From assembly GCF_029870955.1 (NCBI RefSeq), contig NZ_PGFQ01000005.1, positions 1 through 64,000 on the forward strand: DNA of 64,000 nt, read 5' to 3'. The translations under genes and the position numbers were made by a program. The DNA is from Sulfitobacter faviae (GTDB lineage Bacteria > Pseudomonadota > Alphaproteobacteria > Rhodobacterales > Rhodobacteraceae). The notes under the pieces were generated by a model. The model worked only from the letters and a program-made list of their open reading frames with translations, had not been told where the DNA came from and ran no database searches. Shown piece after piece: positions 39,980-61,544 of this stretch. The first letter of the stretch is position 1. Each line of letters starts with the position of its first letter.

Positions 39980-39993
39980 TGTAACCATATGTA
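39980..39993 (+). promoter_or_regulatory. TGTA-N6-TGTA direct repeat before the copper operon
   Basis: TGTA-ACCATA-TGTA followed after 3 bp by TTGATC, a -35-like hexamer. One of five such boxes in the right half of the window; predicted binding site of the response regulator encoded at 59546-60264. Confidence 0.65.
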
Positions 39994-40056
39994 TTCTTGA
40001 TCCTTTGCAGGCGTTCCGGCGATAAAACCTCCAGTTCCACGGAGGGCACGTGAATC

Positions 40057-40188
40057 ATGGATCCGACAAATTCAGAACTCGAAACAGGCCCCGCGCTGAC
40101 CCTCGCAAGTTGCAAGGCAGAACCGCGCGTAAACGCCCCCGGCACGTGCCGTGTTCGAAGCGAACTGTGCCGAGCCGGGTGCGACTGA
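40057..40188 (+). CDS. 43-residue cysteine-containing small ORF upstream of pcoA
   Basis: ATG 40057 has GGAGGG about 10 bp upstream. The product begins MDPTNSELETGPALTLASCK and has four cysteines (SCK, GTC, LCRAGC), no signal peptide and no known domain. It lies in the 270-bp leader between the regulatory box at 39980 and pcoA. It could be a metal-binding peptide or a leader whose translation affects pcoA expression. Coding status is inferred from the ribosome site and codon pattern only. Confidence 0.4.
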   Translation: MDPTNSELETGPALTLASCKAEPRVNAPGTCRVRSELCRAGCD

Positions 40189-40262
40189 CCTCCAAAACGC
40201 CGTCGAACCCTTGAGCACGCGCGCTGCGGCACCTTTCAGACAGACTAATACAAGGAAAACGA

Positions 40263-42248
40263 ATGCAATTCTTCAATAGAAAGCAGCTGGCCCTCTGGGA
40301 TACGGCGCTCAGTACCTCTGAAGAGCTGGCGAAGGGGTTGTCGCGGCGTCAGTTCGGCTTGGCTGCGGCTGCGGCTTTTGCGATGCCCAAAGCGTTGAGC
40401 GCGCATGGCTCCACGCAGGTGACCTCTCAGGGAACCTACAATATCACAGTCGACCCGGTGCGCATCAACACGGGCGATTTTCAGAAGATGGGCGTGGGCT
40501 ACAACCGCAGCCAGATTCCGACGATCCTGCGCTTCAAGGAAGGTGAGGAGGTTACGATAAACGTGACCAACAACCTCAGCGAAAGCACCTCGATCCACTG
40601 GCATGGACTTATCGTGCCCTTCCGTCAGGACGGCGTTCCGGGGATCAGCTTCAACGGCATCGCCCCCGGTCAGACCTTTACCTATCGCTTCCCGATCCAG
40701 CAGGCCGGGACCTATTGGTTCCACAGCCATTCAGGCCTTCAGGAGCCGGATGGCGCCTACGGTGCGATCGTGATCGAGCCGCGCGGCAGGGAACGCATAC
40801 CAGCGCACCGCGACTATGTCGTTCAGCTGGCCGACAAACATCCCCATCCGGGCAACCGCATCTTGCGGAACCTCAAGATGCAGTCCGACTACTACAACCG
40901 TTCGCAGCGCACTTTTCAGGACCTGATCCGGGACGCCCGCATGGACGGTCTCAAGGCGACGCTGAAAGAGCGCCGCATGTGGGGGCGCATGCGCATGCTG
41001 CCGAGCGACGTCGAAGACGTGCAGGGATTTACCTCGCTGATCAACGGTCGCAGCACGTCGCAAAACTGGACCGGTTTGTTCCGGCCCGGTGAGAAGGTCC
41101 GCCTTCGGATCATCAACTCCTCCGCGATGACCTACTTCGACATGCGGATACCGGGACTGAAAATGGTCGTCGTGCAGGCTGACGGCAACGATGTGGAGCC
41201 TGTCGCCGTGGATGAACTGCGGGTCGCGGTTGCCGAGACCTATGATGTCATCGTCCAGCCTACGCAGAACAAGGTCTATAGCATTATTGCGGAATCCATG
41301 GGCCGCAACGGGCTTGTTCGGGGCACCCTGTCACCCAGAGAGGGCTATGCCGGTGCCGTGCCCCGTCTCAGACCCAAGCCCTTGCTCACCATGGCCGACA
41401 TGAGCGGCATGATGGGCGGTATGGGTATGGATATGGGCATGGGTATGGGCGACCACGTCATGCAGAACATGACCGGAATGAACCACACCGACATGACAGG
41501 CATGGACCATTCAAACATGCAATCCAGCCAGCAGCCCCCGATGCCTGCGATGACCCCGTCAGAGGAAAAGCCGAAGAAAAAGACTTCGATGGCTGGGATG
41601 GACCATACGCAGATGCAAAAGCCTGCGATGGACGGCATGGACCACACGCAGATGCAGCAGAAGAAAAAGGCACCGATGTCAGGCATGAACCATGCCCAGA
41701 TGCAGAAGCCCGCAATGGACGGTATGAGCGGCATGGACAGTATGAGCGGAATGGCAATGTCTGATGGCGGCGATCCGTTCTATGTCCCGGGCAGCGGACT
41801 GACGCCTGTCGCGTACAACGGCGGCAAGTTCCTGTCCTACGCAGACCTGCGCGCCGCCAGCCCTCGTTACCGTCACCGCGCACCCTCACGCACCATCGTG
41901 TTGCGGCTGACCGGTAACATGGAGCGCTACATCTGGTCGATCAACGACGTGAAATACGACGATGCCGCCCCGATCACGCTCCGATACGGCGAGCGGGTGC
42001 GCATGCGGTTCATCAACGAAACGATGATGTCGCATCCGATGCACCTGCACGGGATGTGGTCGATCATCGATGCCGGTCACGGTCCGCGCAATCCCATCAA
42101 GCACACCGTGAACATCAATCCCGCCGCCACGACGGACATCGAAGTCGAGGCCGACGCCCCCGGTCAATGGGCGTTCCACTGTCACCTCAGCTACCACGCG
42201 CGGGCGGGAATGTTCCGCAAGGTCGTGGTCAAGGGACGCGCGGCTTGA
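40263..42248 (+). CDS. pcoA: copper resistance multicopper oxidase (CopA/PcoA type)
   Basis: 661-residue periplasmic multicopper oxidase. A twin-arginine signal (GLSRRQFGLAAAAAFAMP, about residues 25-42) is followed by three cupredoxin domains. Copper motifs: IHWHG and FHSHSG, then HPMHLHG and HCHLSYHARAGM near the C-terminus. Between domains 2 and 3 is a Met-rich stretch with repeated MDHTQM and MSGM units (about residues 380-500) that should bind Cu(I). PcoA-type enzymes oxidise or sequester periplasmic copper. First gene of pcoA-copB-cupredoxin, inside the IS6 composite. Confidence 0.93.
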   Translation: MQFFNRKQLALWDTALSTSEELAKGLSRRQFGLAAAAAFAMPKALSAHGSTQVTSQGTYNITVDPVRINTGDFQKMGVGYNRSQIPTILRFKEGEEVTINVTNNLSESTSIHWHGLIVPFRQDGVPGISFNGIAPGQTFTYRFPIQQAGTYWFHSHSGLQEPDGAYGAIVIEPRGRERIPAHRDYVVQLADKHPHPGNRILRNLKMQSDYYNRSQRTFQDLIRDARMDGLKATLKERRMWGRMRMLPSDVEDVQGFTSLINGRSTSQNWTGLFRPGEKVRLRIINSSAMTYFDMRIPGLKMVVVQADGNDVEPVAVDELRVAVAETYDVIVQPTQNKVYSIIAESMGRNGLVRGTLSPREGYAGAVPRLRPKPLLTMADMSGMMGGMGMDMGMGMGDHVMQNMTGMNHTDMTGMDHSNMQSSQQPPMPAMTPSEEKPKKKTSMAGMDHTQMQKPAMDGMDHTQMQQKKKAPMSGMNHAQMQKPAMDGMSGMDSMSGMAMSDGGDPFYVPGSGLTPVAYNGGKFLSYADLRAASPRYRHRAPSRTIVLRLTGNMERYIWSINDVKYDDAAPITLRYGERVRMRFINETMMSHPMHLHGMWSIIDAGHGPRNPIKHTVNINPAATTDIEVEADAPGQWAFHCHLSYHARAGMFRKVVVKGRAA

Positions 42249-42274
42249 GCCGGGAAATACAAAGGACGAACGTA

Positions 42275-42994
42275 ATGAAATACAGTCAACTCGCCGGACT
42301 GGCCGGCCTCATCCTTCCTTGGGCCTCGCTCGTGCAGGCTCAGCCCGTCAAACAAACCGAACAGCTGATCTGGGGCGTGCAGGCGGAACAGTTGGAAATT
42401 CGCGCACTGGATGACGAAGAGGTCCTTGTCTGGGATTTCGACGCCCTCATCGGCACGGATGAGCTCAAGCTGGTGTGGCGCAGCGAAGCTGAATACGGTC
42501 TTTCGTCCGATGAGTTCGAAAGCCTCGAAAACCAGCTACGTCTCCGGTTTCCAATCTCGACCTTCTTTAACGGCGTGGTCGGAGCCTATGCCAGCACACC
42601 CGAGGGCGTTCCGGAACGCTACGCGGCTGTCGTGGGGGTAAAAGGGCTCGCGCCGCAGTGGTTCGAGATCGACGCCGATCTCTACCTCTCCGACTATTCG
42701 TTCTTCAGTTTCGAGGCGGAATACGAACTGCTCCTTACCAACCGTCTGATCCTGACCCCGAACATCGAGATCGATATGCCGCTGAAGGATGACATCGCCC
42801 GGGGGCGGGGTGCGGGTGGCGCAGTCATGGAGATCGGTGCGCGGCTGAGTTACGACCTCATCGACCGTGCGGTCTCACCCTATATCGGCGTCAACTACGA
42901 GACCTCGTTCGGCGACACGCGGGACATCACCCGCGCGGCCGGTGGGGATACAGATGAGTTCTCGGTCGTGATCGGTACACGCCTTCAATTCTGA
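42275..42994 (+). CDS. copB: copper resistance protein B (outer membrane)
   Basis: 239 residues from ATG 42275 with a signal peptide ending VQA-QPV. The body is a run of amphipathic beta strands with alternating aromatic residues and ends in GTRLQF, a typical outer-membrane C-terminal Phe. WGVQAEQLEIR and LVWDFDALIGTDELKLVWRSE are CopB/PcoB signatures. The His/Met-rich N-terminal region of long CopB proteins is absent. It is 26 bp downstream of pcoA and works with it. Confidence 0.9.
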   Translation: MKYSQLAGLAGLILPWASLVQAQPVKQTEQLIWGVQAEQLEIRALDDEEVLVWDFDALIGTDELKLVWRSEAEYGLSSDEFESLENQLRLRFPISTFFNGVVGAYASTPEGVPERYAAVVGVKGLAPQWFEIDADLYLSDYSFFSFEAEYELLLTNRLILTPNIEIDMPLKDDIARGRGAGGAVMEIGARLSYDLIDRAVSPYIGVNYETSFGDTRDITRAAGGDTDEFSVVIGTRLQF

Positions 42995-43078: not shown

Positions 43079-43576
43079 ATGAAACATCTACTGCTGACAA
43101 TCGCACTGGCTTCCTCCTTTGCGGCACCGGGGTTTGCCGGCGAAGCGGCTCACGGAAACAAGTCCGGCGACACCCATGGAGAAATGAAGATCGGCATGCC
43201 CGGCGATGCCGCTGCGGTGGACCGCACGGTCGAGATCGACATGGTCGAAACAGACGACGGCGAAATGCTGTTCAAGGGCGGCGATCTGGATTTCAAAGAA
43301 GGCGAGACCGTCCGTTTCGTCGTCCGCAACGAGGGCGAGTTGGACCATGAGTTCATTCTCGACTCGCAAAAGAAGAACGCCGCGCACAAGAACGAAATGG
43401 CGGATATGAGCGGTATGAATATGGGTCATAATGAGCCCAACCGCATCCGGCTCGCGCCCGGCGAAGATGCCGAAATCATCTGGACATTTGCAAATAACGG
43501 CACGTTCGAAGCTGCTTGCCTGATCCCCGGTCATTACGAATCCGGCATGTTCCGCGAAGTCTCCGTTACTCACTAA
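43079..43576 (+). CDS. cupredoxin-fold copper-binding protein
   Basis: 165 residues, signal peptide (MKHLLLTIALASSFAAPGFA) and one plastocyanin/azurin-like domain. Type 1 copper ligands are visible: His in GELDHEF and Cys-His-Met in CLIPGHYESGM. Met/His-rich inserts (MADMSGMNMGHNEP) add extra copper sites. Resembles CopI-like cupredoxins that accompany copA-copB. Third gene of the operon, followed by a terminator hairpin. Confidence 0.85.
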   Translation: MKHLLLTIALASSFAAPGFAGEAAHGNKSGDTHGEMKIGMPGDAAAVDRTVEIDMVETDDGEMLFKGGDLDFKEGETVRFVVRNEGELDHEFILDSQKKNAAHKNEMADMSGMNMGHNEPNRIRLAPGEDAEIIWTFANNGTFEAACLIPGHYESGMFREVSVTH

Positions 43577-43902: not shown

Positions 43903-44717
43903 GGTGTTGTCACGTTAACTCGCCGAATTTGCAAGTGGCAAGCTGTTCGTTGATCAAGCGGCCTGTGCCGCGGATTTCCACGCCTCGAATGCTTCGAGCC
44001 GATGGTAGCGGATGGTGAGCGCAGAGCGGCGGCGGGCTGGGACAGAGAAACTATTGCGGGTTGCAGACTTCATAGATACGAAGCGTTGTAATCCACCCGG
44101 CGATCGGAAGCCTTGCATCACCCGCTCTCGTTTTCGGAAGGGCAAGTGGCTGTTTTCTGCGCGGTTATTGAGTCCCTTGTGTGACCAATGATCAAGGCCA
44201 GGCGCGACCTCGCGCTTTGCGGCACCATAGGAGCGCAGCTTGTCCGTAATGATCCTTTTTGGCACGAAGCCCCAACGTTTCATCAGCTTGACCAAAAGCC
44301 GCTTTGCGGCGCGCTTGTCTCGTCTCGATTGGAGAATTTCCTCAAGAACAAAGCCGTGTTGGTCGACCGCGCGCCAGAGCCAGTATGACCGACCCGCGAT
44401 CTTCACAACGACTTCGTCCAGATGCCAGACATCGCCGGGGCGCGGCTGCCGTCGCTGTAGAACGTGGGCGATCAGGGGGCCGAACTTGACGCTCCAGCGC
44501 CGGATTGTCTCATACGAAACGTCGACGCCACGTTCCAGCATCAGCTCTTCGACCTCGCGCAGGCTCAAGTTGAACCGGACGTAAAGCCAGACAATATGAG
44601 CGATGATCTGAGGCGGAAACCGGTGGCGTTTGTAGCTGATCTTTTGTGTCTGCATCGACACCGCCTACGCCCAGATCAATGAACCAGCAACCTCAGGACC
44701 GTTAATGTGACAACACC
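43903..44717 (-). mobile_element. IS6-family insertion sequence, right copy (inverted)
   Basis: 815 bp with GGTGTTGTCACGTTAAC at 43903 and the complement of GGTGTTGTCACATTAAC ending at 44717. Same element as at 38656, opposite orientation, one base shorter near the inner end. Confidence 0.85.
43954..44661 (-). CDS. IS6-family transposase (right copy)
   Basis: 235 residues, identical in protein sequence to the left copy (38712-39419), with the DDE core WHLDEVVVKI, ITDKLRSYGAAK and AENSHLPFRKRERVM. Complete and presumably active. Confidence 0.93.
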   Translation of the reverse strand: MSMQTQKISYKRHRFPPQIIAHIVWLYVRFNLSLREVEELMLERGVDVSYETIRRWSVKFGPLIAHVLQRRQPRPGDVWHLDEVVVKIAGRSYWLWRAVDQHGFVLEEILQSRRDKRAAKRLLVKLMKRWGFVPKRIITDKLRSYGAAKREVAPGLDHWSHKGLNNRAENSHLPFRKRERVMQGFRSPGGLQRFVSMKSATRNSFSVPARRRSALTIRYHRLEAFEAWKSAAQAA

Positions 44718-44912: not shown

Positions 44913-44958
44913 TGTATCCGTTTGTAAAGTTGACCAACCGGGAGATGCAGCCATAGAG
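44913..44958 (+). promoter_or_regulatory. TGTA-N6-TGTA box and promoter of the scsB/dsbD-like gene
   Basis: TGTA-TCCGTT-TGTA (44913-44926), 3 bp, then -35 TTGACC (44930-44935), 17 bp, -10 ATAGAG (44953-44958). The box abuts the -35, as is usual for activation by OmpR-type regulators. Confidence 0.65.
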
Positions 44959-45005
44959 GTGCTTCGGATTTCGATCTCGGGACAAGGGTGGAAGCGAGCC
45001 AAAAG

Positions 45006-47099
45006 ATGATGCGAACCACGTTGCGCCTATTCTTCCTTCTCATGGCTTGCCTTTGGGCCTCCATGGGCTTTGCTGCATCGAGCGATACCTACGAGAATTC
45101 AACAATCACGGCCCGGCTCATCTCCGTTGAAAATGGGGTCGCGGAAACCTCCAGAACCCTTTCCCTTGGCCTGGATGTCGAGCTGGCCGAGGGCTGGAAA
45201 GCCTATTGGCGTTCGCCCGGCGAGGTGGGTCTGCCGCCTGAAATTTCATGGGATGGATCGGAAAATCTGGTGAGCGCACAGATGCTCTGGCCCGCGCCTG
45301 AGCGCTTCACGGCATTCGGCATCGAGAATTTTGGCTACAAGACCCGTGTCGTCCTGCCCATTCAGGCAGTTCTCGAAACTGCGGGCCAGTCCGCAACATT
45401 GCAGGCGCGTGTTTCATTGCTGGCGTGCTCGACTGTCTGTGTGCCGCATGATTTCGATCTCGCACTGACAATTCCGGCGGGCACCGGGATTGACGCGAAG
45501 GCGGCGGGCCTGATTTCGGAGTATGCCCAGCGGGTGCCGCTTGGTCCCGAAGAGAGCGACATCATTGTCGAAACGGCGGTGATCGCGGATGATGCGCTTT
45601 ATGTGACGGCGCGCAGTGCGAATGCCTTTGTGAAGCCGGATATCTTTCCGGAACTGGGGCCGGAATTCACCTTTGGCAAACCGGACATCCGAACCGATGA
45701 TGCGGGAACAGCCCTTTGGGCCAAGCTGCCTCTTCTCGCGCAAGGGGAGGATCCGCCGCCCCTGCAACTGACTTTGACCGATGGATCACGCGCGGTGACA
45801 GCGCAGCCCGCTTGGTCAGACCGCATCCCGGGTGCACCATTCGAGGTTATGGCGAACCTGCCGGATCTGACGCAAATCCTGGCGATTGCGGCCTTTGCCT
45901 TTCTTGGCGGTCTGATCCTGAATGTCATGCCCTGTGTTCTGCCTGTCCTGTCCATCAAGCTGACATCGGTTCTCAATCATGGAAACAAGCCAGCGCACGA
46001 GGTCCGGAATGGGTTCCTGATGTCGGCGCTTGGCGTTCTGGTGTTCATGTGGGCCCTCGCCGCAATCATTCTGGTTCTGCAATCCGTCGGCGTCACCGTT
46101 GGGTGGGGCCTGCAATTCCAAAGCCCTGTTTTCCTGACCGTCATGTTTCTGGTGCTTGCCGTGTTCTCTGCCAATCTGTTCGGGGTGTTCGAAGTTTCAT
46201 TGCCCTCCGGGTTGCAGTCACGGCTGGCCAGATCAAGCGGTCGCGACGGGTATGGCGGAGATTTTGCAACAGGCGCCTTCGCGGCGGTGCTGGCCACGCC
46301 CTGCTCGGCCCCGTTTTTGGGGACAGCGGTTGCCTTTGCCCTGTCCGGGCGCCCGATTGATGTCATTCTCGTTTTCACGGCTCTGGGGCTTGGGCTCTCC
46401 CTGCCCTATCTGGTTCTGGCGGGGAAGCCTGGTCTGGTCCGGTTGTTGCCCAGGCCGGGACGTTGGATGGTTGTCGTCAAATGGGTGCTTGCCGGTCTTC
46501 TGGCCGGGACCGCGATCTGGCTGCTCTGGGTACTGATAGGGGTGGCGGGTGGCCGGGTGGCCATGACCGTGCTGCTTATGACGAGCCTTTTCATTCTTCT
46601 CGCAACAATACGTTTGCCGGGCAGATTGACGCGCCCGACAGCGCTGGTGGTGGTTGCTGTTCTCAGCCTTCTGGTGCCGACGGCGCTGACAATCCCGCCG
46701 CAGACGAGAGCGGTGGGCCAGGACTGGGTCGCGTTCGATCGCTCCGAGATACCGAAACTGGTGTCGCAGGGAAAAACCGTCTTTGTCGACGTGACCGCAG
46801 ACTGGTGCCTGACGTGCAAGGCCAACAAGACGCTGGTGCTGGACCGTGCGCCCGTGGTCGACCAACTGCGGGGTGATAATGTCGTTGCGATGCGGGCAGA
46901 CTGGACTAGGTCCAGCACTGACATTTCCCGGTATCTGGAAAGCCACAACAGGTTTGGCATCCCGTTCAACATCGTCTACGGGCCAAACGCGCCAGACGGG
47001 ATCATCCTGTCCGAGGTTCTGACGTCCGAAGCCGTTCTCGACGCGCTGAGCAGGGCTGCACTTGGCGACCCTGTGACCGCTTTGAAAACGGATGGTTAG
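45006..47099 (+). CDS. scsB: ScsB/DsbD-type thiol-disulfide interchange protein
   Basis: 697 residues in the inner membrane. Signal peptide, then a large periplasmic domain with CSTVCVPHDFDL (the cysteine pair typical of ScsB), an eight-helix membrane core with MPCVLPVLSIK and TPCSAPFLGTAV, and a C-terminal thioredoxin domain with ADWCLTCKANK. It passes electrons from the cytoplasm to periplasmic partners. Scs (suppressor of copper sensitivity) systems protect periplasmic thiols from copper; the DsbA-like protein at 52223 is a plausible partner. ATG 45006 chosen because it directly precedes the signal peptide. Confidence 0.88.
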   Translation: MMRTTLRLFFLLMACLWASMGFAASSDTYENSTITARLISVENGVAETSRTLSLGLDVELAEGWKAYWRSPGEVGLPPEISWDGSENLVSAQMLWPAPERFTAFGIENFGYKTRVVLPIQAVLETAGQSATLQARVSLLACSTVCVPHDFDLALTIPAGTGIDAKAAGLISEYAQRVPLGPEESDIIVETAVIADDALYVTARSANAFVKPDIFPELGPEFTFGKPDIRTDDAGTALWAKLPLLAQGEDPPPLQLTLTDGSRAVTAQPAWSDRIPGAPFEVMANLPDLTQILAIAAFAFLGGLILNVMPCVLPVLSIKLTSVLNHGNKPAHEVRNGFLMSALGVLVFMWALAAIILVLQSVGVTVGWGLQFQSPVFLTVMFLVLAVFSANLFGVFEVSLPSGLQSRLARSSGRDGYGGDFATGAFAAVLATPCSAPFLGTAVAFALSGRPIDVILVFTALGLGLSLPYLVLAGKPGLVRLLPRPGRWMVVVKWVLAGLLAGTAIWLLWVLIGVAGGRVAMTVLLMTSLFILLATIRLPGRLTRPTALVVVAVLSLLVPTALTIPPQTRAVGQDWVAFDRSEIPKLVSQGKTVFVDVTADWCLTCKANKTLVLDRAPVVDQLRGDNVVAMRADWTRSSTDISRYLESHNRFGIPFNIVYGPNAPDGIILSEVLTSEAVLDALSRAALGDPVTALKTDG

Positions 47100-47101
47100 G
47101 C

Positions 47102-51897: not shown

Positions 51898-51928
51898 GAT
51901 ATAGGGCTTCCAGTTGCTGGAAGCTCAA
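51898..51928 (-). promoter_or_regulatory. CueR-controlled promoter of the copA ATPase
   Basis: Minus strand: -35 TTGAGC (51923-51928), 19-bp spacer with dyad TTCCAG-CAA-CTGGAA, -10 TATATC (51898-51903). The long spacer and dyad are as in known CueR promoters. Confidence 0.8.
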
Positions 51929-51960
51929 GAGAGTATCTCATTTATTTTTCTGATATTTGC

Positions 51961-51991
51961 TTGACCTTCCTCCCGATGGAACGACCAAGTC
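51961..51991 (+). promoter_or_regulatory. possible CueR-type promoter of copZ
   Basis: TTGACC (51961-51966), then CTTCC-N7-GGAAC as a half-conserved dyad in a 19-bp spacer, and CAAGTC as a poor -10. Divergent from the copA promoter; plausible but weak. Confidence 0.35.
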
Positions 51992-52222: not shown

Positions 52223-52942
52223 TTATTCGGCGGCCCGTGCCTGATCGACAAGCTCGATCATCTGGTCCGCCTGGATCAGGCCCGGCGCAAGACTGTCGCC
52301 GATCACAAATGAAGGTGTGCCACTGAACCCCAGAGATTGCGCAAGCCGCATGGAAGTCTGTATGTGTTCTTCTATTTCCGGTCCGTTCATGTCGCTACGC
52401 AACTGTGCAACATCGAGGCCGATGTTTTCCGCAGTGCGGAGAATCGATGCTTCCTCTGCGCGTTCCTTCAGTTGCATCATGGCCCAATGAAACTCTTCAT
52501 ATTTGCCCTGGTTTCGGGACGCCAGCGCCGCGCGGGCGGCAAAAACCGACCCGTCCCCCAGAATGGGCCATTCCCGGTAAACGACCCTGACGTTGGGATC
52601 AGCGGCAAGCAATGCCTCCATTTCAGGTTTAACCCGGCGGCAATAGGGGCAGTTGTAGTCGAAGAATTCGACAACCGTGACATCGCCATCCGGATTGCCC
52701 AGAACGGGCGCATTGGGATCATTTTCAAGCGTGGCTTTTTCCGTATCGAGAACCTGCGCTGCGGCTTGCGCCTGCAACGCCTGCTGTTGCTGTTCGAACA
52801 ACTGCGCGGCCTCGAACACGATGCCCGGATTCTCGCGGATGGCTTCCAGCACCAGTTCCTTGATCCGGTCTTCGTCCATGCCGTCTGCCGTCGCAGCGAT
52901 GGGAAGCATTAACAGTGCGGTGGTAGCCAAGAATCTTTTCAT
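52223..52942 (-). CDS. DsbA-family thiol oxidoreductase (ScsC-like)
   Basis: 239 residues with signal peptide ([19 protein letters not shown]), an N-terminal helical region with Gln-rich coiled coil (LFEQQQQALQAQ), and a thioredoxin fold with the redox site DYNCPYCRR and cis-Pro loop SGTPSFVIG. The N-terminal extension is as in trimeric ScsC/BcfH-like isomerases. With the ScsB-like protein at 45006 it may form a copper-protective disulfide isomerase pair. Start overlaps the stop of the upstream cytochrome gene by 1 bp. Confidence 0.85.
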   Translation of the reverse strand: MKRFLATTALLMLPIAATADGMDEDRIKELVLEAIRENPGIVFEAAQLFEQQQQALQAQAAAQVLDTEKATLENDPNAPVLGNPDGDVTVVEFFDYNCPYCRRVKPEMEALLAADPNVRVVYREWPILGDGSVFAARAALASRNQGKYEEFHWAMMQLKERAEEASILRTAENIGLDVAQLRSDMNGPEIEEHIQTSMRLAQSLGFSGTPSFVIGDSLAPGLIQADQMIELVDQARAAE

Positions 52943-53436
52943 TATCCGTCTCCTTGTGAGGCAATATCCTGGGCCGTGCGCTCGGCTTGCGTGGCGCGTT
53001 CACGCTCCGGCCATGTTGACTTGATGTATGCGAGGATGTCCCAGATTTCCCCGTCGCTCAGTTGGTCGCCGAAACCGGGCATGCCGCTGTTGAAGTCAAC
53101 GCCTTGCGCCGCGAGAACCTCGGCGCCCCCCAGCTTGGTGTAGGCGAACAGCATGCTGTCCGCGTGGTGCCAAGTGTGGCCGCTTGCATCATGCGGCGGT
53201 GCGGGCAGGCTTCCGTCATCACGCGGACTGCGCCAGTTTTCTTCACCTTCCAGATTTGCGCCATGGCACGCGGCGCAATTTTCGGCATAGAGGACTTCGC
53301 CCGCGGCCACATCGGCTGAGGAGTTGATGAGGTTTTCCGCCGTATGGTCGGTTCCGCCGGACCGGGTCCACAGGAATATGGTAGCCACCGCAACGGTAAC
53401 TACGCCCAACGCAAGATAGACGGATCGCGGGGTCAT
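52942..53436 (-). CDS. membrane-anchored mono-heme cytochrome c
   Basis: 164 residues from ATG 53436. One N-terminal helix ([18 protein letters not shown]) anchors a class I cytochrome c domain: heme site [13 protein letters not shown], Met ligand likely in [13 protein letters not shown], and [13 protein letters not shown]. Overlaps the multicopper oxidase stop by 4 bp (ATGA). Part of an operon of an oxidase and several cytochromes, 57367 to 52223. Confidence 0.88.
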
Positions 53437-54821
53437 CCAACGACGATCTTGGTCATCATGCCCGAAGCCGCATGCGACAGCATGTGGCAATGTAGCAGCC
53501 ATTGGCCCGGGTTGTCCGCCACAAAGGCAATCTCGCGCGTCTGACCCCGTTCAAGAAGGGTCGTGTCACGCAGCGGTCCGAGGGTGCCGTTTTCGGCGAC
53601 CTCGTGGAAGTGAATGCCATGCAGGTGCATCGCGTGCGGAAACGCCGTGTCGTTCACGATCTTCAATCGTACATTCTGGCCGCGGTCCAGCCGCGCAAGG
53701 GGATCACCGTTGATCCCGTCCACTTTGCCGTTGAACGACCAGAAATACCCGGCCTCGACGATCTCGCCGATCGGCTTGAGTTCGCCCCCAAGGGAAGCGG
53801 ACCTCATCCGCCCCATGGCACCGCCTTCCATACTCAGGCTGAGCATCGTGGCTTCACTCAAGTCGACCATCCTGTGGTCGTTCGGCGGCAAGGCCAAAGG
53901 CGCGTCTCGACGATTTTTCGAGCCCCACTCAACGACCTCGAATGTAACCTGGCTGAAGGCCTCTTCCCGGCCGAACTGAAGAATATGAGCCGTTTCACCA
54001 ACATCCGCGACCACATCGACGATCAGGTCGATCCGTTGAGCCGGAGCGAGGATCATCGGCTCCGTCACCTTAATGGGTGCAGCCAGGGGCATGCCGTCCA
54101 AAGCAACCGCCCAACCGTCAAGGCCTTCCAGCCCCAGTTGGAAATTGCGCGCATTGGCAGCATTGATCAGCCGCAAGCGCAGTCTTTCGTTCTTGCGTGC
54201 ACTCAGGCCCAGATTGAAGGTTCCATTGGTCGTCAGCAGGTTGCCGATGCGCCCTGCGTGGCTGAGATCATGAGGCGCTCCGAAGTCGTCTTTGATCTGC
54301 GCGGTTTCGGGGTCAATAAGCCAATCATCCAGGATCAGGACTTCCTCGCGATCAATGTCGAGAGGCTCGGCCTCTTCCACGATCAGTGCACCGTAAAGCC
54401 CTCTGCCCACCTGCTCAAACGACCTATTATGGGCATGGTACCAATAGGTCCCGGCATCCGGGACAGTAAAGTCATAGTCGAATGTTTCCTCCGGCTGGAC
54501 CACATCCTGTGTCAGGCCGGAAACGCCATCCATCGCATTGTCGATGCGGATGCCGTGCCAATGCGTCGACGTTCCCTGAGAAAACCGGTTGACCAATCTG
54601 CGCTGGACACGCCCCCCCTGCGCCACGCGAATCTCCGGACCGGGTGAGCCGCCGTCAAAGCACCAAAGCGATGTCTTGCCATAGTTGCCGGGCAGCAGCT
54701 GCACGTCGCTTTGCTGGGCTGTCAGGGTCGCGAATGGCGTGCCCGCAAATCCAGTGCTGGCCGACAGACCACTGAACGCAGCAGATGTTGCCAGAAATTG
54801 GCGGCGATTGAGCGTGATCAT
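53433..54821 (-). CDS. multicopper oxidase (CueO/laccase-like)
   Basis: 462 residues from ATG 54821. Twin-arginine signal ([15 protein letters not shown]), three cupredoxin domains, copper motifs [26 protein letters not shown] and [13 protein letters not shown]. No Met-rich insert like that of pcoA. Likely oxidises Cu(I) or another metal/phenol in the periplasm. Its operon with c-type cytochromes is unusual and suggests electrons are passed to, or taken from, them. Confidence 0.9.
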
Positions 54822-54837
54822 TCGTGGGTTCCCAAGA

Positions 54838-55728
54838 TTATGATTTGTTGTCCAGCAGGTAGGTGGCCATCGCATTCAGGTCTGCGTCGCTCAGAAAGCC
54901 CGTGCCATAGCGCACGGCTTCGGCCATTGATCCACCAAATACGTCGCCAGACGGCGTTATGCCAGATCGCAATGCATAAGCCATATCGTCTGTTGTCCAG
55001 CCTTCGGACACAAGATCGCGCGTCCGGATCGAAGGTGCTTTGCCACCTCCCGGCAAGGCGTCGTTGCCGGAAAACCTCTTCGATACTATGCGTGCGCCTG
55101 CAAAGTTCCGCGTTGTGTGGCAGGCAGCACAATGTGCCGCCCCGTTGACCAGCAGCTTGCCCCTGTTCCAAGCATCGCTTCGGTCCGCCTCTGGTGCGGT
55201 GTCAGGCTTTGTCAGAAAAGCCGCCCGCCAAAGTTTCATCCCCCATCGCTGATCGAACGGAAAAGGCACCTCATGGGACGGGGTCGGCACATTCACGGCT
55301 GGCACGGTCTGGAACGCGGCCCACAGATCGGCAATGTCCTGATCCGTGTAGTTTGCATAAAACGGGTAGGTGAAGGTGGGATAATAGGGGTCTCCGTCCG
55401 GGGAAATTCCCTGCCTTACCGCTTTTGCAAACTCTTCTACTGTCCAGCCGCCAATCCCGAATTCGACATCGGTGGTCAGATTTGGCGGATAGAATGTCCC
55501 GAAATCGGTCCGGAGCGGCGCTCCTCCTGCCAATGGCGCCCCGCCAGCTTCAAAGTTGGTGTGGCACGCAATGCATCCACTGGCGCGCGCCAGATACGAC
55601 CCCCGCTGGGCATCGCCTTGCAGGGTCAGGTCCGAGACTGGCGCACCGATCGGCCAGGCTATCGTTGCCGCGACAACGCCGATGCCGCCGACGACCCCCG
55701 CACCGATGATCCAACGCCACCACCGCAT
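54838..55728 (-). CDS. membrane-anchored di-heme cytochrome c
   Basis: 296 residues from ATG 55728. N-terminal helix (WWRWIIGAGVVGGIGVVAATIAW in part) and two cytochrome c domains with ASGCIACHT and AAHCAACHT. Phrases such as FYPPNLTTDVEFGIGGW are typical of cytochrome subunits of alcohol or gluconate dehydrogenases (usually tri-heme). Likely an electron carrier between periplasmic enzymes and the respiratory chain. 16 bp upstream of the multicopper oxidase. Confidence 0.87.
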   Translation of the reverse strand: MRWWRWIIGAGVVGGIGVVAATIAWPIGAPVSDLTLQGDAQRGSYLARASGCIACHTNFEAGGAPLAGGAPLRTDFGTFYPPNLTTDVEFGIGGWTVEEFAKAVRQGISPDGDPYYPTFTYPFYANYTDQDIADLWAAFQTVPAVNVPTPSHEVPFPFDQRWGMKLWRAAFLTKPDTAPEADRSDAWNRGKLLVNGAAHCAACHTTRNFAGARIVSKRFSGNDALPGGGKAPSIRTRDLVSEGWTTDDMAYALRSGITPSGDVFGGSMAEAVRYGTGFLSDADLNAMATYLLDNKS

Positions 55729-55732
55729 CTGA

Positions 55733-56332
55733 TCACTTGTCCTCTTTGCGGAACTTCTGGTGGCAGGCCGAACAGGTCTGGGCGACCATCGCGAACGCAC
55801 GGTCGGTCGGCATGTCCGCAAACATCTCGGTCGTCATGGGAAGGTCCGATCCCATCATGCCCCCTCCCATTGCAGGCGCGGACCCGCCACCCATCATCCC
55901 GTCAGTGGCGCCGCCCATCATTGATTCGCTACCGTTGCCCTGTGCTGCGGCCAACCCATTGCCTGCGCTCAACTTCAATCCTTCGGCGGCTGTTCTCAAC
56001 TCTTGCGCAAGGGCCGCGAACTCTTCGCTGTTTTCCCAGACCGACGGCAACGCCTTGGACACTCCGCCACCCGAGCCTTCAGGAAACAGTCGCGTCATTT
56101 GCTCACCGGCATGGCCGATCATCGCGCCAGCTTCCCTGCGGACGACATCGGCGTCATAAGGTACCTGACCCCGCATCATGGGTGATAGCGTCTTGAGTGT
56201 TTTGGCCATCGCGGACATGCCCTGCATCCGCTCCAGCACCACGCCGGTTGCTCCGGAATGCGCCAAGGCAGCAACGCCGGTCGTCCCGATCGCAATGGCA
56301 GTAATCCATATCTTCATGTTCAAGTTGGTCAT
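55733..56332 (-). CDS. class II cytochrome c (cytochrome c'-type)
   Basis: 199 residues from ATG 56332. Signal sequence, four-helix bundle pattern with RMQGMSAMAKTLKTLSPMMRG, and the C-terminal heme site TCSACHQKFRKED characteristic of cytochromes c'. A Met/Gly-rich insert (SMMGGATDGMMGGGSAPAMGG, about residues 140-165) is unusual and might bind copper. Confidence 0.85.
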   Translation of the reverse strand: MTNLNMKIWITAIAIGTTGVAALAHSGATGVVLERMQGMSAMAKTLKTLSPMMRGQVPYDADVVRREAGAMIGHAGEQMTRLFPEGSGGGVSKALPSVWENSEEFAALAQELRTAAEGLKLSAGNGLAAAQGNGSESMMGGATDGMMGGGSAPAMGGGMMGSDLPMTTEMFADMPTDRAFAMVAQTCSACHQKFRKEDK

Positions 56333-56337
56333 TCCTG

Positions 56338-56796
56338 TCAATTGATCCCGTTGGCGCGCTGAAGTTCCCGCACATATGCAACAACCATCTTCACATCGCC
56401 GGGCGTGACGCCTTCAACTGGCGGCATATTGCCAAACTTCCAATGGTGCGCTCTGACACCTTGTTTCGCGGCAAGCAAAAAAGCGGCGTCACCGTGATGG
56501 CTCGGTTCATAGATCTTGTGGACAAGCGGCGGTGCCACGCCATTCTGTCCGGCAGCATTCGCACCGTGACAAGCGGCGCAAGCGCCATCGAAAACACGCT
56601 TTCCCAATTGGGCATTTGCTGAGAATTCAGCAGGCACAACCACGTCTGCAATCGGCGCGCCCTCTTCCGTCTGCGAAAGATCAGGCGTTGTCATTGTGTG
56701 GCCGGGCATCGAAGACGATGGCTGCAATTGCTGCCAGATCACAACCGCGCCACCGACGACAAAAAACGCCGCAATCAGGATGCCGGACTTCGACAT
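56338..56796 (-). CDS. mono-heme cytochrome c, membrane-anchored
   Basis: 152 residues from ATG 56796, which shares its A with the stop of the preceding L,D-transpeptidase. N-terminal helix (GILIAAFFVVGGAVVIW), heme site [14 protein letters not shown], Met ligand in FGNMPPVEGVT. Class I cytochrome c domain similar to those of oxidase-linked carriers. Second gene of the L,D-transpeptidase-cytochrome-oxidase operon. Confidence 0.87.
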   Translation of the reverse strand: MSKSGILIAAFFVVGGAVVIWQQLQPSSSMPGHTMTTPDLSQTEEGAPIADVVVPAEFSANAQLGKRVFDGACAACHGANAAGQNGVAPPLVHKIYEPSHHGDAAFLLAAKQGVRAHHWKFGNMPPVEGVTPGDVKMVVAYVRELQRANGIN

Positions 56797-57367
56797 CAGA
56801 TTAATCGTACCTGCGTGCCGACCGGTGTCCTTTCGAACACCTCGATGATTTGCTCGTTGTAGAGACCGATACACCCGCTTGAAGAGCGTCTTCCGATCTT
56901 GCGCGTATCATGGGTGCCGTGAATCCTGTAGTACGTCCAACTCAGGTGCAGGGCACGGACGCCCAACGGGTTATCCGGCCCGGGCGGCATATAGGCTGGC
57001 AAAGACGGGTCACGTTCGCGCATGGAGGGTGTAGGGGTCCAGTCAGGTTCGGGTCCTTGAACGTGACTGTCGTGTAGCCGCGCTTTGTCAGCTCGTCAGA
57101 CAAGGGAACCGATGTCGGATAAATGCGCATTTCGCCATCGGCCGTCCAGTGTTGCATCACGCGGGTAACGGTGTCTGCGATGATGATACCCTTGTCCAAA
57201 GCGTCAAAGTGGTCTTGCCAAGCGTGTGTACGAAACGATGAGATATTCCTTCGGACACTGGTTTGATCCACCTGCGCACGCAGGATGGACGGGGCCGCGA
57301 AAGCTGCCGATGCGGCACCTGCCGTGAATGCTCGACGCGTTACACGTGTTTGCTTGCGGGTCATCAT
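56796..57367 (-). CDS. L,D-transpeptidase (YkuD domain), exported (frameshifted)
   Basis: From ATG 57367: Tat-like signal (VTRRAFTAGAASAAFAAPS), then the YkuD domain. The frame changes at the GG pair 57046-57047; one extra base gives PDWTPTPSMRERDPSLP and continues through GPDNPLGVRALHLSW to IHGTHDTRKIGRRSSSGCIGL with the catalytic His and Cys, ending VGTQVRLI. About 190 residues when restored. First gene of an operon of cytochromes and a multicopper oxidase; a TGTA-N6-TGTA box lies 80 bp upstream. Confidence 0.82.
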
Positions 57368-57447: not shown

Positions 57448-57461
57448 TGTAACGATATGTA
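57448..57461. promoter_or_regulatory. TGTA-N6-TGTA box between two L,D-transpeptidase genes
   Basis: TGTA-ACGATA-TGTA on the plus strand, while the downstream gene (57367) is on the minus strand; reversed relative to the other boxes. On the minus strand it lies between TTGGCC and TAATAT, a possible -35/-10 pair 18 bp apart. Confidence 0.5.
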
Positions 57462-57495: not shown

Positions 57496-58089
57496 TCAAA
57501 CCTCGATGGGTTTCAGGACAACACGCGTGTCGAGCGGGACCTTCTCATAGAGTTCGATGATCTGATTATTGGTAAGCCTTGCACAGCCGTTTGAGACACG
57601 TCGACCAATCGTCTTCGGATCCGTTGTGCCGTGAATTCTCAGGTAGGTGTCCCCACGCCCTGGCTGGTAAAGATACAAGGCGCGGGCACCGAGTGGATTG
57701 TTCAGCCCACCGGGCACACCGCCCGCAAAACGAAGATATCGGTCAGGATCTCTGGCTATCATGGCGGGTGTGGGCGTCCACCGCGGCCACTTTTGCTTGC
57801 GCGCGACATAGAACTCGCCGGATTCATAGAGCCCCTCCCGGCCAATTCCGACGGTATACCTGATTGCCCGATTGTTCGGCAAAGTCCAAAATAAAGCGAA
57901 CTGGTTCGGATCGACATGTATTTCTCCCGGTTTGTCTGCCTCGGTGAACGGAACCTGGCGCGGCAACTGCTCCGGGGGCACCACAGATGGCCCGACGCGC
58001 CGGTCGTGCTCTGCGTCACTATGCGCGAATGCTGTTTTTCCACTCACCGAAAGAGCTGCAACAGAAGTCAGGAAATATCTTCGTTTCAT
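57496..58089 (-). CDS. L,D-transpeptidase (YkuD domain), exported
   Basis: 197 residues, complete. Signal peptide (MKRRYFLTSVAALSVSGKTAFA), YkuD core with KWPRWTPTPAMIARDPDRYL, NNPLGARALYLYQ and IHGTTDPKTIGRRVSNGCARL with catalytic His and Cys. Close in layout to the enzyme at 8041-8835. It follows the histidine kinase gene on the same strand (17 bp), so it is probably part of the two-component operon. Confidence 0.9.
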   Translation of the reverse strand: MKRRYFLTSVAALSVSGKTAFAHSDAEHDRRVGPSVVPPEQLPRQVPFTEADKPGEIHVDPNQFALFWTLPNNRAIRYTVGIGREGLYESGEFYVARKQKWPRWTPTPAMIARDPDRYLRFAGGVPGGLNNPLGARALYLYQPGRGDTYLRIHGTTDPKTIGRRVSNGCARLTNNQIIELYEKVPLDTRVVLKPIEV

Positions 58090-58106: not shown

Positions 58107-59549
58107 CTAGTCGGGTTTGAGGTGACGAACAACCCGCGCCATATGTGGCGAGCCTTCCTCTTTCGGGGCTGACTCGGCGCTTTGTTTGACGGGCAGCGTG
58201 ATTTCAGCGCGCAGACCCCCATCAGTGCGGTTTTTCAGTTCGATAGAACCACCGTGCTCAAGGATGATGCTGCGCGCAATCGACAGCCCCAGGCCATGAC
58301 CGCCGGTATCCTGTGATCGCGACGTCTCGAGCCTGACATAGGGTCCGAAAACAGCCTCCAGCTGATTGTCGGGAATACCGGGCCCCTGATCGTCGATGGC
58401 GACCACTACCTCACTGCCCATGCGTTGCCACGAAACCCTGGCCTCACTCCCGTAGCGGATCGCGTTCTCAATCAGGTTTCTCAACGCGCGCCCCATCGCG
58501 CTTGGTTTCACGGATACGATGAGTGGACCTTGGCTGGTCACCTGAACCTTGTCCAAGCCCATACCAGTGATCAGATCGTGCAAATCAACCGATTGGACCT
58601 CTTCATGCTGTCCGACGCCCTTCGCGAAATCGAGGGTCGCATCGACCATCCGTTGCATCTCTTCACTTGACGCCACCAAGGACGTGCGCGTGTCTTCGTC
58701 GTCCACCATTTCGGCCCGCACCCTAAGCGCCGTCAAAGGCGAGCGCAGATCATGCGCAAGCGCTGCAAGCATCTGGGTCCGGTCACTGACAAATCGCGTC
58801 AGGCGATCCTGCATGATGTTGAATGATCGGGTCAGATCCCGAACTTCCTTCGGCCCTACGACCGGCAGATCGCCCTTGGCGGCGCCGCGACCCAGACGTT
58901 CGGACGCAGTCGCGAGATCGTTGAGTGGTCCGGTCAGTCGGGACAGGAGAAACCAGAAACTTGCAACCAGCAGAAGTCCCGCAGTCAGTGCAAAGGATAT
59001 GTTGGACGCCAGCGACCTTTGCAGAGGCGGCCGTTCGAACCGCGTCTCGATGTTGAGCCAATTCCCACCGGACAGCGCAATGGACAGCTCCATCTCGATG
59101 GCCGCAAGGCTGCCCTGCATCATTTCGGCGTGCATTTGCGCCATTTCCGGTGACAGGTTCGGAAGGGGCAGCAGACCTCCCTCGATTTCATGAACCTCAA
59201 CCCGGATATCCCGGCTGTAGCTTTCCTGAAGCAGTGCCCGTATCCGCGCTTCGACCGCTCCACCGTCATCGTGTTGTCCGTGTGCAACCGACGGCTCGTC
59301 TGTAAGGTCGAACCGTACGAGCGGAGACGTTGCCGCGCGGACGATCTGGGCATGCAATTCCGGGGGTGCGCCTTCAATCAACTGTGCGACATTTGCGGCC
59401 CTTCCGGCGGCTTCGGCACCGATGGCGGCCTGAATGGCTAACGAGCGTTCATCAACGAAAAACCAAAGACTCAGAGCTTGCGCGAGGATCAAGACACCGA
59501 GGACCAGAAGGGCAATCTGTGCACGCAACGTCCGCGGAAGCAGCTTCAT
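58107..59549 (-). CDS. sensor histidine kinase with HAMP domain
   Basis: 480 residues from ATG 59549 (overlapping the response regulator stop; an ATG 6 bp earlier is also in frame). Two membrane helices flank a periplasmic sensor region of about 150 residues with His/Met-rich parts (AHGQHDDGG; PEMAQMHAEMMQG) that could bind copper. HAMP, then the phosphoacceptor LAALAHDLRSPLTALR, N box LIENAIRYG, and G boxes DDQGPGIPD and GHGLGLSIA. Partner of the OmpR-type regulator. Copper sensing is inferred from the neighbours and the His/Met content. Confidence 0.9.
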   Translation of the reverse strand: MKLLPRTLRAQIALLVLGVLILAQALSLWFFVDERSLAIQAAIGAEAAGRAANVAQLIEGAPPELHAQIVRAATSPLVRFDLTDEPSVAHGQHDDGGAVEARIRALLQESYSRDIRVEVHEIEGGLLPLPNLSPEMAQMHAEMMQGSLAAIEMELSIALSGGNWLNIETRFERPPLQRSLASNISFALTAGLLLVASFWFLLSRLTGPLNDLATASERLGRGAAKGDLPVVGPKEVRDLTRSFNIMQDRLTRFVSDRTQMLAALAHDLRSPLTALRVRAEMVDDEDTRTSLVASSEEMQRMVDATLDFAKGVGQHEEVQSVDLHDLITGMGLDKVQVTSQGPLIVSVKPSAMGRALRNLIENAIRYGSEARVSWQRMGSEVVVAIDDQGPGIPDNQLEAVFGPYVRLETSRSQDTGGHGLGLSIARSIILEHGGSIELKNRTDGGLRAEITLPVKQSAESAPKEEGSPHMARVVRHLKPD

Positions 59550-60264
59550 TCGCAAATCTCGACATCGCAGGAAAGACTATACCCCCATGCCGGACAGTCG
59601 CGATGATCTTCGGGCGCAAAACGTCCTCTTCCATCTTCCGGCGCAACCGGCTCACCTGATTGTCGATGGTTCGGTCCAATGGACCGGCGACCCGGCCGGT
59701 GCTCAATTTGAGCAGCTCCTCGCGGCCAATGACCGTCCTTGGCCTTTGCAGGAACAGGGTCAGGAGTTTGAGTTCACCGGATGTAAGTTGCGTACGCGAA
59801 CCGCCTTGGTCAATCAGTGTGCGGCCATCGAAATCCAGCTTTAGGTGTGCAAACTTCAACGTTTTCCCCGCAAAACCATTCGGTTTTGGGATCAGCTGCG
59901 TCCGACGCAATATCGCGTTGATCCGCGCCACCAGTTCCTTGGGATTAAACGGCTTGGCGAGATAATCGTCTGCCCCGCCATCCAGACCCGCGATGCGGTC
60001 TTCGTCGTCACCCAATGCGGTCAGCATCAGGATCGGAATATGCCCTTCCTTGCGCAATCGCCTGCACGCGGACAGCCCGTCTTCCCCCGGCATCATCACA
60101 TCGAGGACAATCAGATCGAAATGCGCTTCCGCCAGCCTTGCGTCCATCTCAACTGCATTTTCCGCCGCTGAAGCACGCATGCCGTTGCGTTCCAGATAAC
60201 TGGTGACGGATTTCCGAATCTCTGAATGGTCATCGACGACAAGGATGCGTGGCAGATCGCTCAT
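59546..60264 (-). CDS. OmpR-family response regulator (frameshifted at the end)
   Basis: About 238 residues from ATG 60264. Receiver domain with LVVDDH, phospho-Asp in LIVLDVMMPGEDG and the conserved AKPFNPKEL; winged-helix output domain LTSGELKLLTLFLQRP, VSRLRRKME and KIIATVRHGG. The C5 run 59582-59586 lacks one base: adding it gives RHGGYSLSCDVEICE and a stop at 59546 that overlaps the kinase start (ATGA). Without it the frame runs on to 59452. Likely activator of the TGTA-N6-TGTA boxes and autoregulated. Confidence 0.88.
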
Positions 60265-60309: not shown

Positions 60310-60323
60310 TGTAGCCAAATGTA
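60310..60323. promoter_or_regulatory. TGTA-N6-TGTA box between response regulator and DUF411 genes
   Basis: TGTA-GCCAAA-TGTA in the 125-bp divergent region. A possible plus-strand promoter is TCGACT (60337-60342)/TATTTA (60360-60365), 17 bp apart. The box could serve both directions. Confidence 0.6.
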
Positions 60324-60389
60324 ACAGCGCGGGCAGTCGACTTCGGGATACCGAGCAACTATTTAAGGAAGAACAACGAGGAGTTTTAA

Positions 60390-60836
60390 GTGAACCGACG
60401 TGAATTTGGCCTTACGGCACTCAGCCTGGCCTTGGCCGGGCCTGCTTTGTCGCAAACCGCCGCACCCACGTTGCAGGTGACAAAGACACCGACCTGCGGC
60501 TGCTGCGGCGCTTGGGTAAATGAGATGATCGCTGCCGGTTTCAAGGCATCGGTCGAGGACGTGGATTACGACACGCTTCAGGTTCTGAAGCAGAAACACG
60601 GCATCGCGCCGGAACTGGCAGGATGTCACACTACGTCCGTGGGCGGATATTTCGTCGAGGGTCACGTGCCTGCGGCTGACATCGGGCGGTTGCTGAGCGA
60701 AAAACCTGTCGCGCGCGGACTGACAGCACCGGGAATGCCCATGGGTTCGCCCGGCATGGGCCCCCAAGGTGATCCCTATGATGTGCTGCTTGTACTGATG
60801 GATGGGTCGACGCAAGTCTTCGCAACCCACGGCTGA
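60390..60836 (+). CDS. DUF411 (CopG-like) periplasmic metal-binding protein
   Basis: 148 residues; GTG start with GAGGAG upstream. Tat-like signal (MNRREFGLTALSLALAGPALS) and a DUF411 domain: KTPTCGCCGAWVNEM, GIAPELAGCHTTSVGGYFVEGHVPA. Cysteines and histidine match the family's proposed metal site. DUF411 proteins are common in copper resistance clusters; some (CopG) have been described as periplasmic copper oxidoreductases. Divergent from the two-component system. Confidence 0.88.
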   Translation: MNRREFGLTALSLALAGPALSQTAAPTLQVTKTPTCGCCGAWVNEMIAAGFKASVEDVDYDTLQVLKQKHGIAPELAGCHTTSVGGYFVEGHVPAADIGRLLSEKPVARGLTAPGMPMGSPGMGPQGDPYDVLLVLMDGSTQVFATHG

Positions 60837-60837
60837 C

Positions 60838-61476
60838 GTGTTTGCCCGCGATACGTTCCGACAAAGTTTTTCGCCGACCTTACCATTCGGCAGATTTTGT
60901 TGGAACGTATCCGTTCTGAGCTTGGCAAGCATATTGCCGTTCCTGCTTGTCTACATCCTCGCAACGCCTGGTTTTGCGACGCTGCTGCTGACGAATGGGA
61001 CCGCGCTCTCGCGCTTCCTCCGGCAGGTCTTTACCAATGGGTTTGTGGTCGTTTTCCTCGTGAATTACTTGGGGTTCGTTTCCGCATCGGTCGCGCTGAA
61101 GCAGTACCAGCATCGGCCGATTGTTTACCTGGTTTTAGATGGCCTGCTGCGGAGTGTCGCATTCATTGGGGTTCACATTGCCGTCTATGTGATGTCGGCC
61201 GATCTGTTCGGCTCGTTCAACGGCAGCCGTGCAACAGCTTTGAGCGTGGTCGGACCAACGCTCGAGCGGTCGTTCATGTTTGGGAACATCTCGGGCGTAT
61301 ATCTCTATGCCCTGGCGCCCGGCACCTTCATCGCGCTTCTGGTGGTTCTGACAGAACCTTCTGGCGAGGCATCGAAGCCTACCATGTTCAGGACAATGAG
61401 CATGGCCTTGCTGTTCAGCCTGACCCCGATCCCCCTCGTCACATTCCTGTCCTATGCGTTGGATCTGGCAACCTGA
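60838..61476 (+). CDS. hypothetical multi-pass membrane protein
   Basis: 212 residues if started at GTG 60838, 1 bp after the DUF411 stop; ATG 60802 inside that gene is an alternative. About five to six hydrophobic helices (SLASILPFLLVYILA; FVVVFLVNYLGFVSAS; YLVLDGLLRSVAFIGVHIAV; VYLYALAPGTFIALLVVL; ALLFSLTPIPLVTFLS). No cysteine or metal motif and no family I recognise. Probably co-transcribed with the DUF411 gene. Confidence 0.55.
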   Translation: MFARDTFRQSFSPTLPFGRFCWNVSVLSLASILPFLLVYILATPGFATLLLTNGTALSRFLRQVFTNGFVVVFLVNYLGFVSASVALKQYQHRPIVYLVLDGLLRSVAFIGVHIAVYVMSADLFGSFNGSRATALSVVGPTLERSFMFGNISGVYLYALAPGTFIALLVVLTEPSGEASKPTMFRTMSMALLFSLTPIPLVTFLSYALDLAT

Positions 61477-61521
61477 CGGGCCAACTTGGTCAACGACCCG
61501 CAGGCTGTCATCTGATCAAAT

Positions 61522-61544
61522 TGTATCCGAATGTACCCTTGACC
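61522..61544 (+). promoter_or_regulatory. TGTA-N6-TGTA box with adjacent -35, before the DUF2933 gene
   Basis: TGTA-TCCGAA-TGTA (61522-61535), 3 bp, then TTGACC (61539-61544). Same arrangement as at 44913. No clear -10 was found. Confidence 0.6.

Follow-up and report, generated by a model that had tools for sequence, protein, structure and literature searches.

The stretch of DNA analysed here (the window) comprises bases 1 to 64000 of the 208-kb contig C5 of a Sulfitobacter faviae genome (G000; 3,830,987 bases in five contigs). Its right half holds a copper island with genes for multicopper oxidases, cytochromes and DUF411 and DUF2933 proteins, together with an OmpR-like response regulator and an EnvZ-like sensor kinase (Table 1). 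Five direct repeats of the form TGTA-N6-TGTA (here, boxes 1 to 5) lie in front of or beside these genes. We consider it likely that they serve as operators for the two-component system encoded in the island itself, which would sense copper and activate its targets.

A first-pass annotation had reported the five boxes and had noticed no such pair in the left half of the window. Both statements hold: all five are present on the + strand as the sole matches in 64 kb, compared with a mean of 0.21 and a maximum of 2 in 100 shuffles, and the left half contains none. Plain patterns were searched genome-wide, as the annotation had proposed. There are 17 matches in 3.83 Mb, versus 48 for a backwards control pattern, and the 21.6-kb island stretch is enriched above chance (0.07 boxes expected from the rate in the rest of the genome; P for five or more = 1e-8). 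Searching with the refined form TGTANCSNWWTGTA gives five hits genome-wide, every one inside the island. The half-site is mostly TGTATC, and the flanking sequences are dissimilar from box to box.

Table 1. Predicted operators and genes of the copper island in the window (PWM, position weight matrix score; ORF, open reading frame; IS, insertion sequence)
Feature	Position	Strand	Sequence, evidence or remark
Box 1, upstream of pcoA	39980..39993	+	TGTAACCATATGTA; TTGATC 3 bp downstream; 269 bases to ORF start; PWM 24.2
Box 2, upstream of scsB	44913..44926	+	TGTATCCGTTTGTA; TTGACC 3 bp downstream; PWM 21.5
Box 3, cytochrome operon	57448..57461	-	TGTAACGATATGTA; TGTA-N6-TGTA on + strand, reversed relative to its own - strand operon (56942 down to 52223); PWM 27.9
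Box 4, between divergent regulator and DUF411 genes	60310..60323	.	TGTAGCCAAATGTA; PWM 25.1
Box 5, upstream of DUF2933	61522..61535	+	TGTATCCGAATGTA; TTGACC 3 bp downstream; PWM 24.5
IS6-family element, left copy	38656..39437	+	PF13610; annotated IS6 on plasmid copy
pcoA/copA-type multicopper oxidase	40263..42248	+	TIGR01480 662.5 bits (cut-off 478.95)
Copper resistance protein B (CopB)	42275..42994	+	PF05275
Cupredoxin-like protein	43079..43576	+	PF00127 26.4 bits (cut-off 21.2); annotated cupredoxin on plasmid copy
IS6-family element, right copy, inverted	43936..44717	-	Annotated IS6 on plasmid copy
scsB/DsbD-type thiol reductase	44988..47099	+	PF02683, PF11412
CueR, separate copper regulator of the island	48961..49350	-	TIGR02044 164 bits (cut-off 147)
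CopA-type P-type ATPase	49360..51870	-	TIGR01511 613 bits; promoter without TGTA box
Cytochromes c and c-prime, second multicopper oxidase, ScsC/DsbA-like protein	52223..56874	-	Pfam
Cytochrome operon gene 1, L,D-transpeptidase-like, frame broken here	56942..57367	-	186-190 residues in relatives; intact and annotated L,D-transpeptidase on plasmid copies
L,D-transpeptidase, third gene after regulator and kinase	57496..58089	-	PF03734
EnvZ-like sensor kinase	58107..59549	-	NCBIfam, alignment; conserved His/Met in periplasmic part
OmpR-like response regulator, C-terminus out of frame in this copy	59452..60264	-	NCBIfam OmpR 236 bits
DUF411 protein	60390..60836	+	PF04214
DUF2933 small membrane protein	61596..61907	+	PF11666 20.5 bits on a longer ORF, just below cut-off 21; annotated DUF2933 on plasmid copy

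A position weight matrix (PWM) was trained on 32 distinct boxes from relatives, among them those of the diverged plasmid copies L231 and L232, with the window and its near-identical copies excluded. In the window it finds the five boxes at scores of 21.5 to 27.9 and no further site of 9 or more. Across 404 kb of other G000 sequence (260 kb of it from contigs C1 to C4), the best sites score 20.7, 18.1 and 17.1, all within 20 kb to the right of the window, and the rest reach at most 15.2. A prior-free dyad scan of 20 regulator promoters of relatives returned TGTA-N6-TGTC and TTGT-N7-TGTA in 12 promoters each, while ten shuffles reached at most 4 or 5. The spacing of exactly 3 bp to TTGAYC that the annotation had seen at three boxes is confirmed (TTGATC at 39980, TTGACC at 44913 and 61522), and it recurs elsewhere: TTGAY stands at exactly +3 in 18 of 42 distinct box contexts and at no other distance between 0 and 10 (counted over 36 loci of the clade and of plasmids, the window among them, with some contexts coming from close relatives). 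With two direct half-sites at a 10-bp period, of the TACA-N6-TACA/GTTACA type, the boxes have the form of OmpR/RstA-type operators.

Box 4 lies in the regulator's own promoter and before DUF411, as had been proposed, 45 bases from the start codon of the former and 66 from that of the latter. The placement of box 3 before an L,D-transpeptidase/cytochrome operon stands only in part. The operon is indeed its neighbor, but the box is reversed relative to it because the operon starts at 57367 on the - strand. Likewise, the operon does begin with a frameshifted L,D-transpeptidase-like gene, but the L,D-transpeptidase at 57496-58089 lies downstream of the kinase and runs in the regulator's direction.

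A sixth promoter of the regulon probably exists 2.5 kb to the right of the window, at C5:66457-66496 (L109:2458-2497), where the degenerate boxes TGTCACCGTTTGTA and, on the other strand, TGTAATCATTTGTC face each other (PWM 18.1 and 20.7). The operon behind them encodes a Met-rich EF-hand protein, a rhodanese and a multicopper oxidase, and a ccmF-like gene lies on the other side. The facing pair travels with the island on other plasmids; in the Pseudosulfitobacter copy the first box is unchanged and the second changed, within a wider region of 72% identity.

The island region is found on plasmids of S. faviae and S. dubius (99.6% identity over 99-100%), Tritonibacter mobilis (98.2% over 99%), and Salipiger abyssi and Roseivivax marinus (99.1 and 99.5% over 76%). 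Any match to the island occurs in 165 of 72,556 plasmid records, and seven cover at least 80% of it in one place. A diverged copy on Pseudosulfitobacter plasmid pDSM107133_e (L231) retains four boxes at the corresponding promoters, with 13 of 14 positions identical in box 2 (before dsbA-scsB genes) and in box 3, and all 14 in box 4. A Roseovarius THAF9 plasmid (L232) retains the box together with TTGATC upstream of pcoA. Over five box pairs between the window and diverged copies, 64 of 70 box positions are identical, compared with 384 of 612 flanking positions.

We searched 149 genomes of the family for the regulator and assigned hits with E at most 1e-72 to its clade (21 genomes with, 128 without). 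The 21 clade loci contain 22 boxes in 392 kb, where shuffles predict 0.65 and the backwards control gives 10, and 15 loci have at least one; 12 more distant regulator loci contain 2 boxes (0.35 expected, 2 control matches). DUF2933 goes with the clade regulator. It occurs in 11 of the 149 genomes, namely, in 10 of the 21 with a clade regulator versus 1 of the 128 others (Fisher p = 3e-9; 2e-9 when G014, whose kinase was treated as an outgroup, is moved to the others). Of 12 DUF2933 loci, nine have an exact upstream box and one a box with a single mismatch, while G043 and G066 have neither. Anatomy, enrichment, conservation and co-occurrence are directly observed. Four findings support the island two-component regulon proposed in the annotation: the box is rare genome-wide, the same promoters keep it in other genera, its 3-bp distance to a -35-like hexamer is fixed, and the regulator's own promoter contains boxes.

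The regulator is the sole OmpR-type regulator of the window, as had been claimed; it gives the only Trans_reg_C match on C5, the other nine of the ten in the genome being on C1 (two of those are pieces of one place). It combines a receiver domain (PF00072, 108 bits) with Trans_reg_C (PF00486, 55.8 bits), the architecture of OmpR-family winged-helix regulators. Among 96 NCBIfam families OmpR scores best (236.1 bits), below its cut-off of 331, so that the protein is OmpR-like and not OmpR proper; the heavy-metal regulator subfamily cztR_silR_copR (TIGR01387) gives 128.2 bits against a cut-off of 279.2, which places the protein outside it. The counterpart of its recognition helix RTIDNQVSRLRRKM in Escherichia coli OmpR (PDB entries such as 6lxl) is RSIDVQISRLRRMV, and among PDB proteins its DNA-binding domain scores 54.5 bits with 6zwt, 51 with OmpR, 36 with RstA and 31 with PcoR. 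An association of the N of IDNQ, a V in E. coli OmpR, with TGTATC instead of TGTAAC was considered, and this idea was dropped because L103 pairs RSIDVQ with a TGTATC box.

In 13 of the 21 clade loci the regulator promoter has two facing boxes, 60-72 bp and 91-106 bp upstream of the matched start (86 and 117 in L092), the weaker member scoring from 10 to 24; in the window, a single box of the pair is recognizable. Sites scoring at least 12, the PWM cut-off used here, lie no more than 300 bp from the regulator at 18 of the 21 loci, at 12 of them through sites outside the training set and at 6 through training sites. Boxes of the form TGTAT-N5-TGTATC also occur about 80-155 bp upstream of Pseudomonas OmpR-like regulators (L176, L177, L179-L182 and L188-L190).

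The kinase resembles the regulator in its affiliation. EnvZ is the best of 80 NCBIfam families (198 bits) but remains below its cut-off of 415, making the protein EnvZ-like and not EnvZ proper, and with 117.3 bits against a cut-off of 292.55 it falls outside the heavy-metal kinase subfamily cztS_silS_copS (TIGR01386). Of 19 clade kinases, 16-19 retain the periplasmic residues H93, H120, M136, M139, H140, M143 and M144, and 14 retain H90; of these residues, H140 alone recurs in at least one of three outgroup kinases. (The 19 exclude L082, which is near-identical to L081, L088, whose reading frame is split, L097 and L231.) In a separate count of 78 loci, from which two near-identical to the window had been excluded, the pattern M..MH..M(M) is present at 10 of 11 loci with a regulator at least 55% identical (it is missing in L123) and at none of the 67 others, one of which yielded no kinase. 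Together with the gene content of the island, the conserved His and Met residues suggest that copper may be the ligand or signal of the kinase. A structure model of the kinase (mean predicted local distance difference test score [pLDDT], 76.1; predicted template modeling score [pTM], 0.47) assigns the Met/His stretch to a predicted helix (134-143), where the block means are 54 (63 for 131-140); because the model is weak at this stretch, it is not used as evidence.

The IS6-family copies are identical, inverted and 782 bp long, and they enclose pcoA, copB and the cupredoxin gene together with box 1 in the manner of a composite transposon; the pcoAB module may therefore have joined the island together with its own operator. 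At 51900-51990, the divergent promoters of copA and of a small HMA-domain gene lack a TGTA box and resemble CueR-type promoters, which suggests that one island contains two separate copper regulons. At 62188-63811, ccmI/ccmH-like cytochrome c maturation genes adjoin the island and perhaps serve its c-type cytochromes.

We infer regulator binding, activation and the copper signal from the sequences described above, and the following mechanism is likely. The kinase would detect periplasmic copper ions, probably via the conserved His and Met residues, and phosphorylate the regulator, a dimer of which would sit head-to-tail on two 10-bp half-sites of the TGTATCCNWW type. At pcoA, scsB and DUF2933, where a TTGAY -35-like element follows the box after 3 bp, the regulator would recruit RNA polymerase, perhaps by class II-type activation from a site abutting the -35 element. 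Box 4 may provide autoregulation of the regulator-kinase operon as well as control of DUF411, and box 3, in reverse orientation, may govern the cytochrome/multicopper oxidase operon. The operon of the Met-rich protein, rhodanese and multicopper oxidase to the right of the window would be a probable sixth target.

Several observations weigh against this model. (i) The TTGAY spacing is absent at two of the five window boxes, and both the orientation of box 3 and the placement of box 4 are at odds with a simple 3-bp rule. (ii) The exact box is absent around 6 of the 21 clade loci and from the loci around four pcoA homologues of other family genomes (L227-L230), and no site of PWM 12 or more was found in the regulator promoters of L084, L096 and L097 (3 of the 21). 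(iii) Boxes also occur outside the clade. Sites of PWM 12 or more exist at 4 of 11 outgroup regulator loci, and the refined pattern, found in 14 of 21 clade-regulator genomes, occurs in 37 of the 128 others (p = 0.002), so that the pattern alone is unspecific. In the 78-locus count, an exact box lies within 200 bp upstream of the regulator at 5 of the 11 clade-like loci and also at 15 of the 67 non-copper loci. Given that none of these 67 has the Met/His pattern, the box accompanies OmpR-like DNA binding generally and the Met/His pattern the copper clade. (iv) The regulator of the window is frameshifted near its C terminus (59452-59620), though intact plasmid copies exist. In it and in the first gene of the cytochrome operon (56942-57120), a homopolymer run differs by one base from the near-identical records L114, L115 and L233, and the frames are therefore shifted; both frameshifts are likely sequencing errors.

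The frameshift also figures in an alternative that we regard as improbable, namely, that a chromosomal OmpR-like paralogue (about C1:2925680-2926411) is the main reader of the boxes, the island system being dead in this strain or not needed. This paralogue carries the helix RTIDNQVARLRKKV, with tandem half-sites of the same class, cgTATCCATTTGTAACGCTTTGTCGC, upstream of its gene (L236:587-612; C1 about 2925586-2925611). With so similar an operator, cross-binding to the island boxes is possible, which counts against the favored model. However, the boxes and the island system move together between genera and plasmids, DUF2933 follows the clade regulator, and the His/Met residues of the kinase are restricted to the clade. 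These clade-specific sensor residues bear equally on the suggestion that the regulator answers envelope stress or another metal, such as silver, and that copper is incidental. It draws on the fact that the top named families are OmpR and EnvZ and no copper regulators, and on targets that include two L,D-transpeptidases and a thiol reductase; since the boxes front pcoAB, DUF2933, DUF411 and multicopper oxidases, we consider it unlikely, if credible.

Joint control of the box-adjacent promoters by CueR would be suggested by TTGACCTT, which resembles the CueR-type promoters of the island copA and copZ; at DUF2933, TTGACCTT...TGGAA is similar to TTGACCTTCC...TGGAA of the copZ promoter. Against it, over 15 promoters the observed dyad symmetry score is matched by a fraction of 0.07 to 1.00 among 500 shuffles, and we give this explanation little credence. 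CueR-type dyads beside the boxes, not being clearly above shuffles in these promoters, are not claimed here. That the repeats arose by chance or through copying of a repeated element has next to no probability. Boxes 1 and 2 do lie a few hundred bases from the IS6 copies, but the enrichment over the genome rate, the unlike flanks, the conservation in diverged copies, the PWM and dyad scans, the counts at 21 loci and the fixed +3 spacing all contradict such an origin.

Compared with known systems, the island system, read as a copper-responsive regulator-kinase pair with its own operators, is most similar to EnvZ/OmpR and RstB/RstA of E. coli and Salmonella. The OmpR motif published for E. coli is GTTACATTTTGTTACAT (PMC5438342), and that of RstA is TACA-N6-TACA (PMC7315122); the tandem motif GTTACAnnnnGTTACA or TACA-N6-TACA is the reverse complement of the box arrangement. 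With EnvZ/OmpR the system also shares the best-scoring named families and a similar recognition helix, although its proteins stay below the curated cut-offs. It differs from both systems in the His/Met sensor, the copper gene targets, the location on a plasmid island and the mostly TGTATC half-site in place of TGTAAC. CopRS, CusRS, PcoRS and AgrRS have pcoA/copA-type targets and probable autoregulation in common with it. Yet the island regulator and kinase lie under the cut-offs of their subfamilies, and the operators of CopR, PcoR, CusR and AgrR, in the published descriptions consulted (among PMC11195947, PMC7380067 and PMC10141476), are inverted repeats such as ATKACANNNNTGTMAT, whereas those of the island are direct. 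The CopR/PcoR/CusR inverted repeat TKACANNNNTGTMA is not enriched in the window, which has one match with a single mismatch at 20988 where 3.46 are expected. CueR, encoded in the island beside copA, is a one-component MerR-type regulator, and the copA and copZ promoters lack the TGTA box. Judged by sequence, the island system is a member of the OmpR/EnvZ branch with an OmpR/RstA-type operator, outside the CopR/CusR subfamily.

On balance, we favor the view that it represents a separate copper two-component lineage that arose from the OmpR/EnvZ branch, senses copper through a periplasmic His/Met domain, uses direct-repeat operators in both orientations at six or more promoters and has spread on plasmids (several of them typed as conjugative) among marine Roseobacteraceae. 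No description of an OmpR-type copper system of Rhodobacterales was found in the titles and abstract openings of the literature matches listed, a search in which subscription journals are thinly covered. Marine roseobacters encounter copper, for example, from antifouling paint. Our analysis names a regulator, an operator and targets that can be put to the test in a copper island near-identical on plasmids of several genera, and it suggests that the OmpR/EnvZ branch, like the CopR/CusR branch, gave rise to copper sensing.

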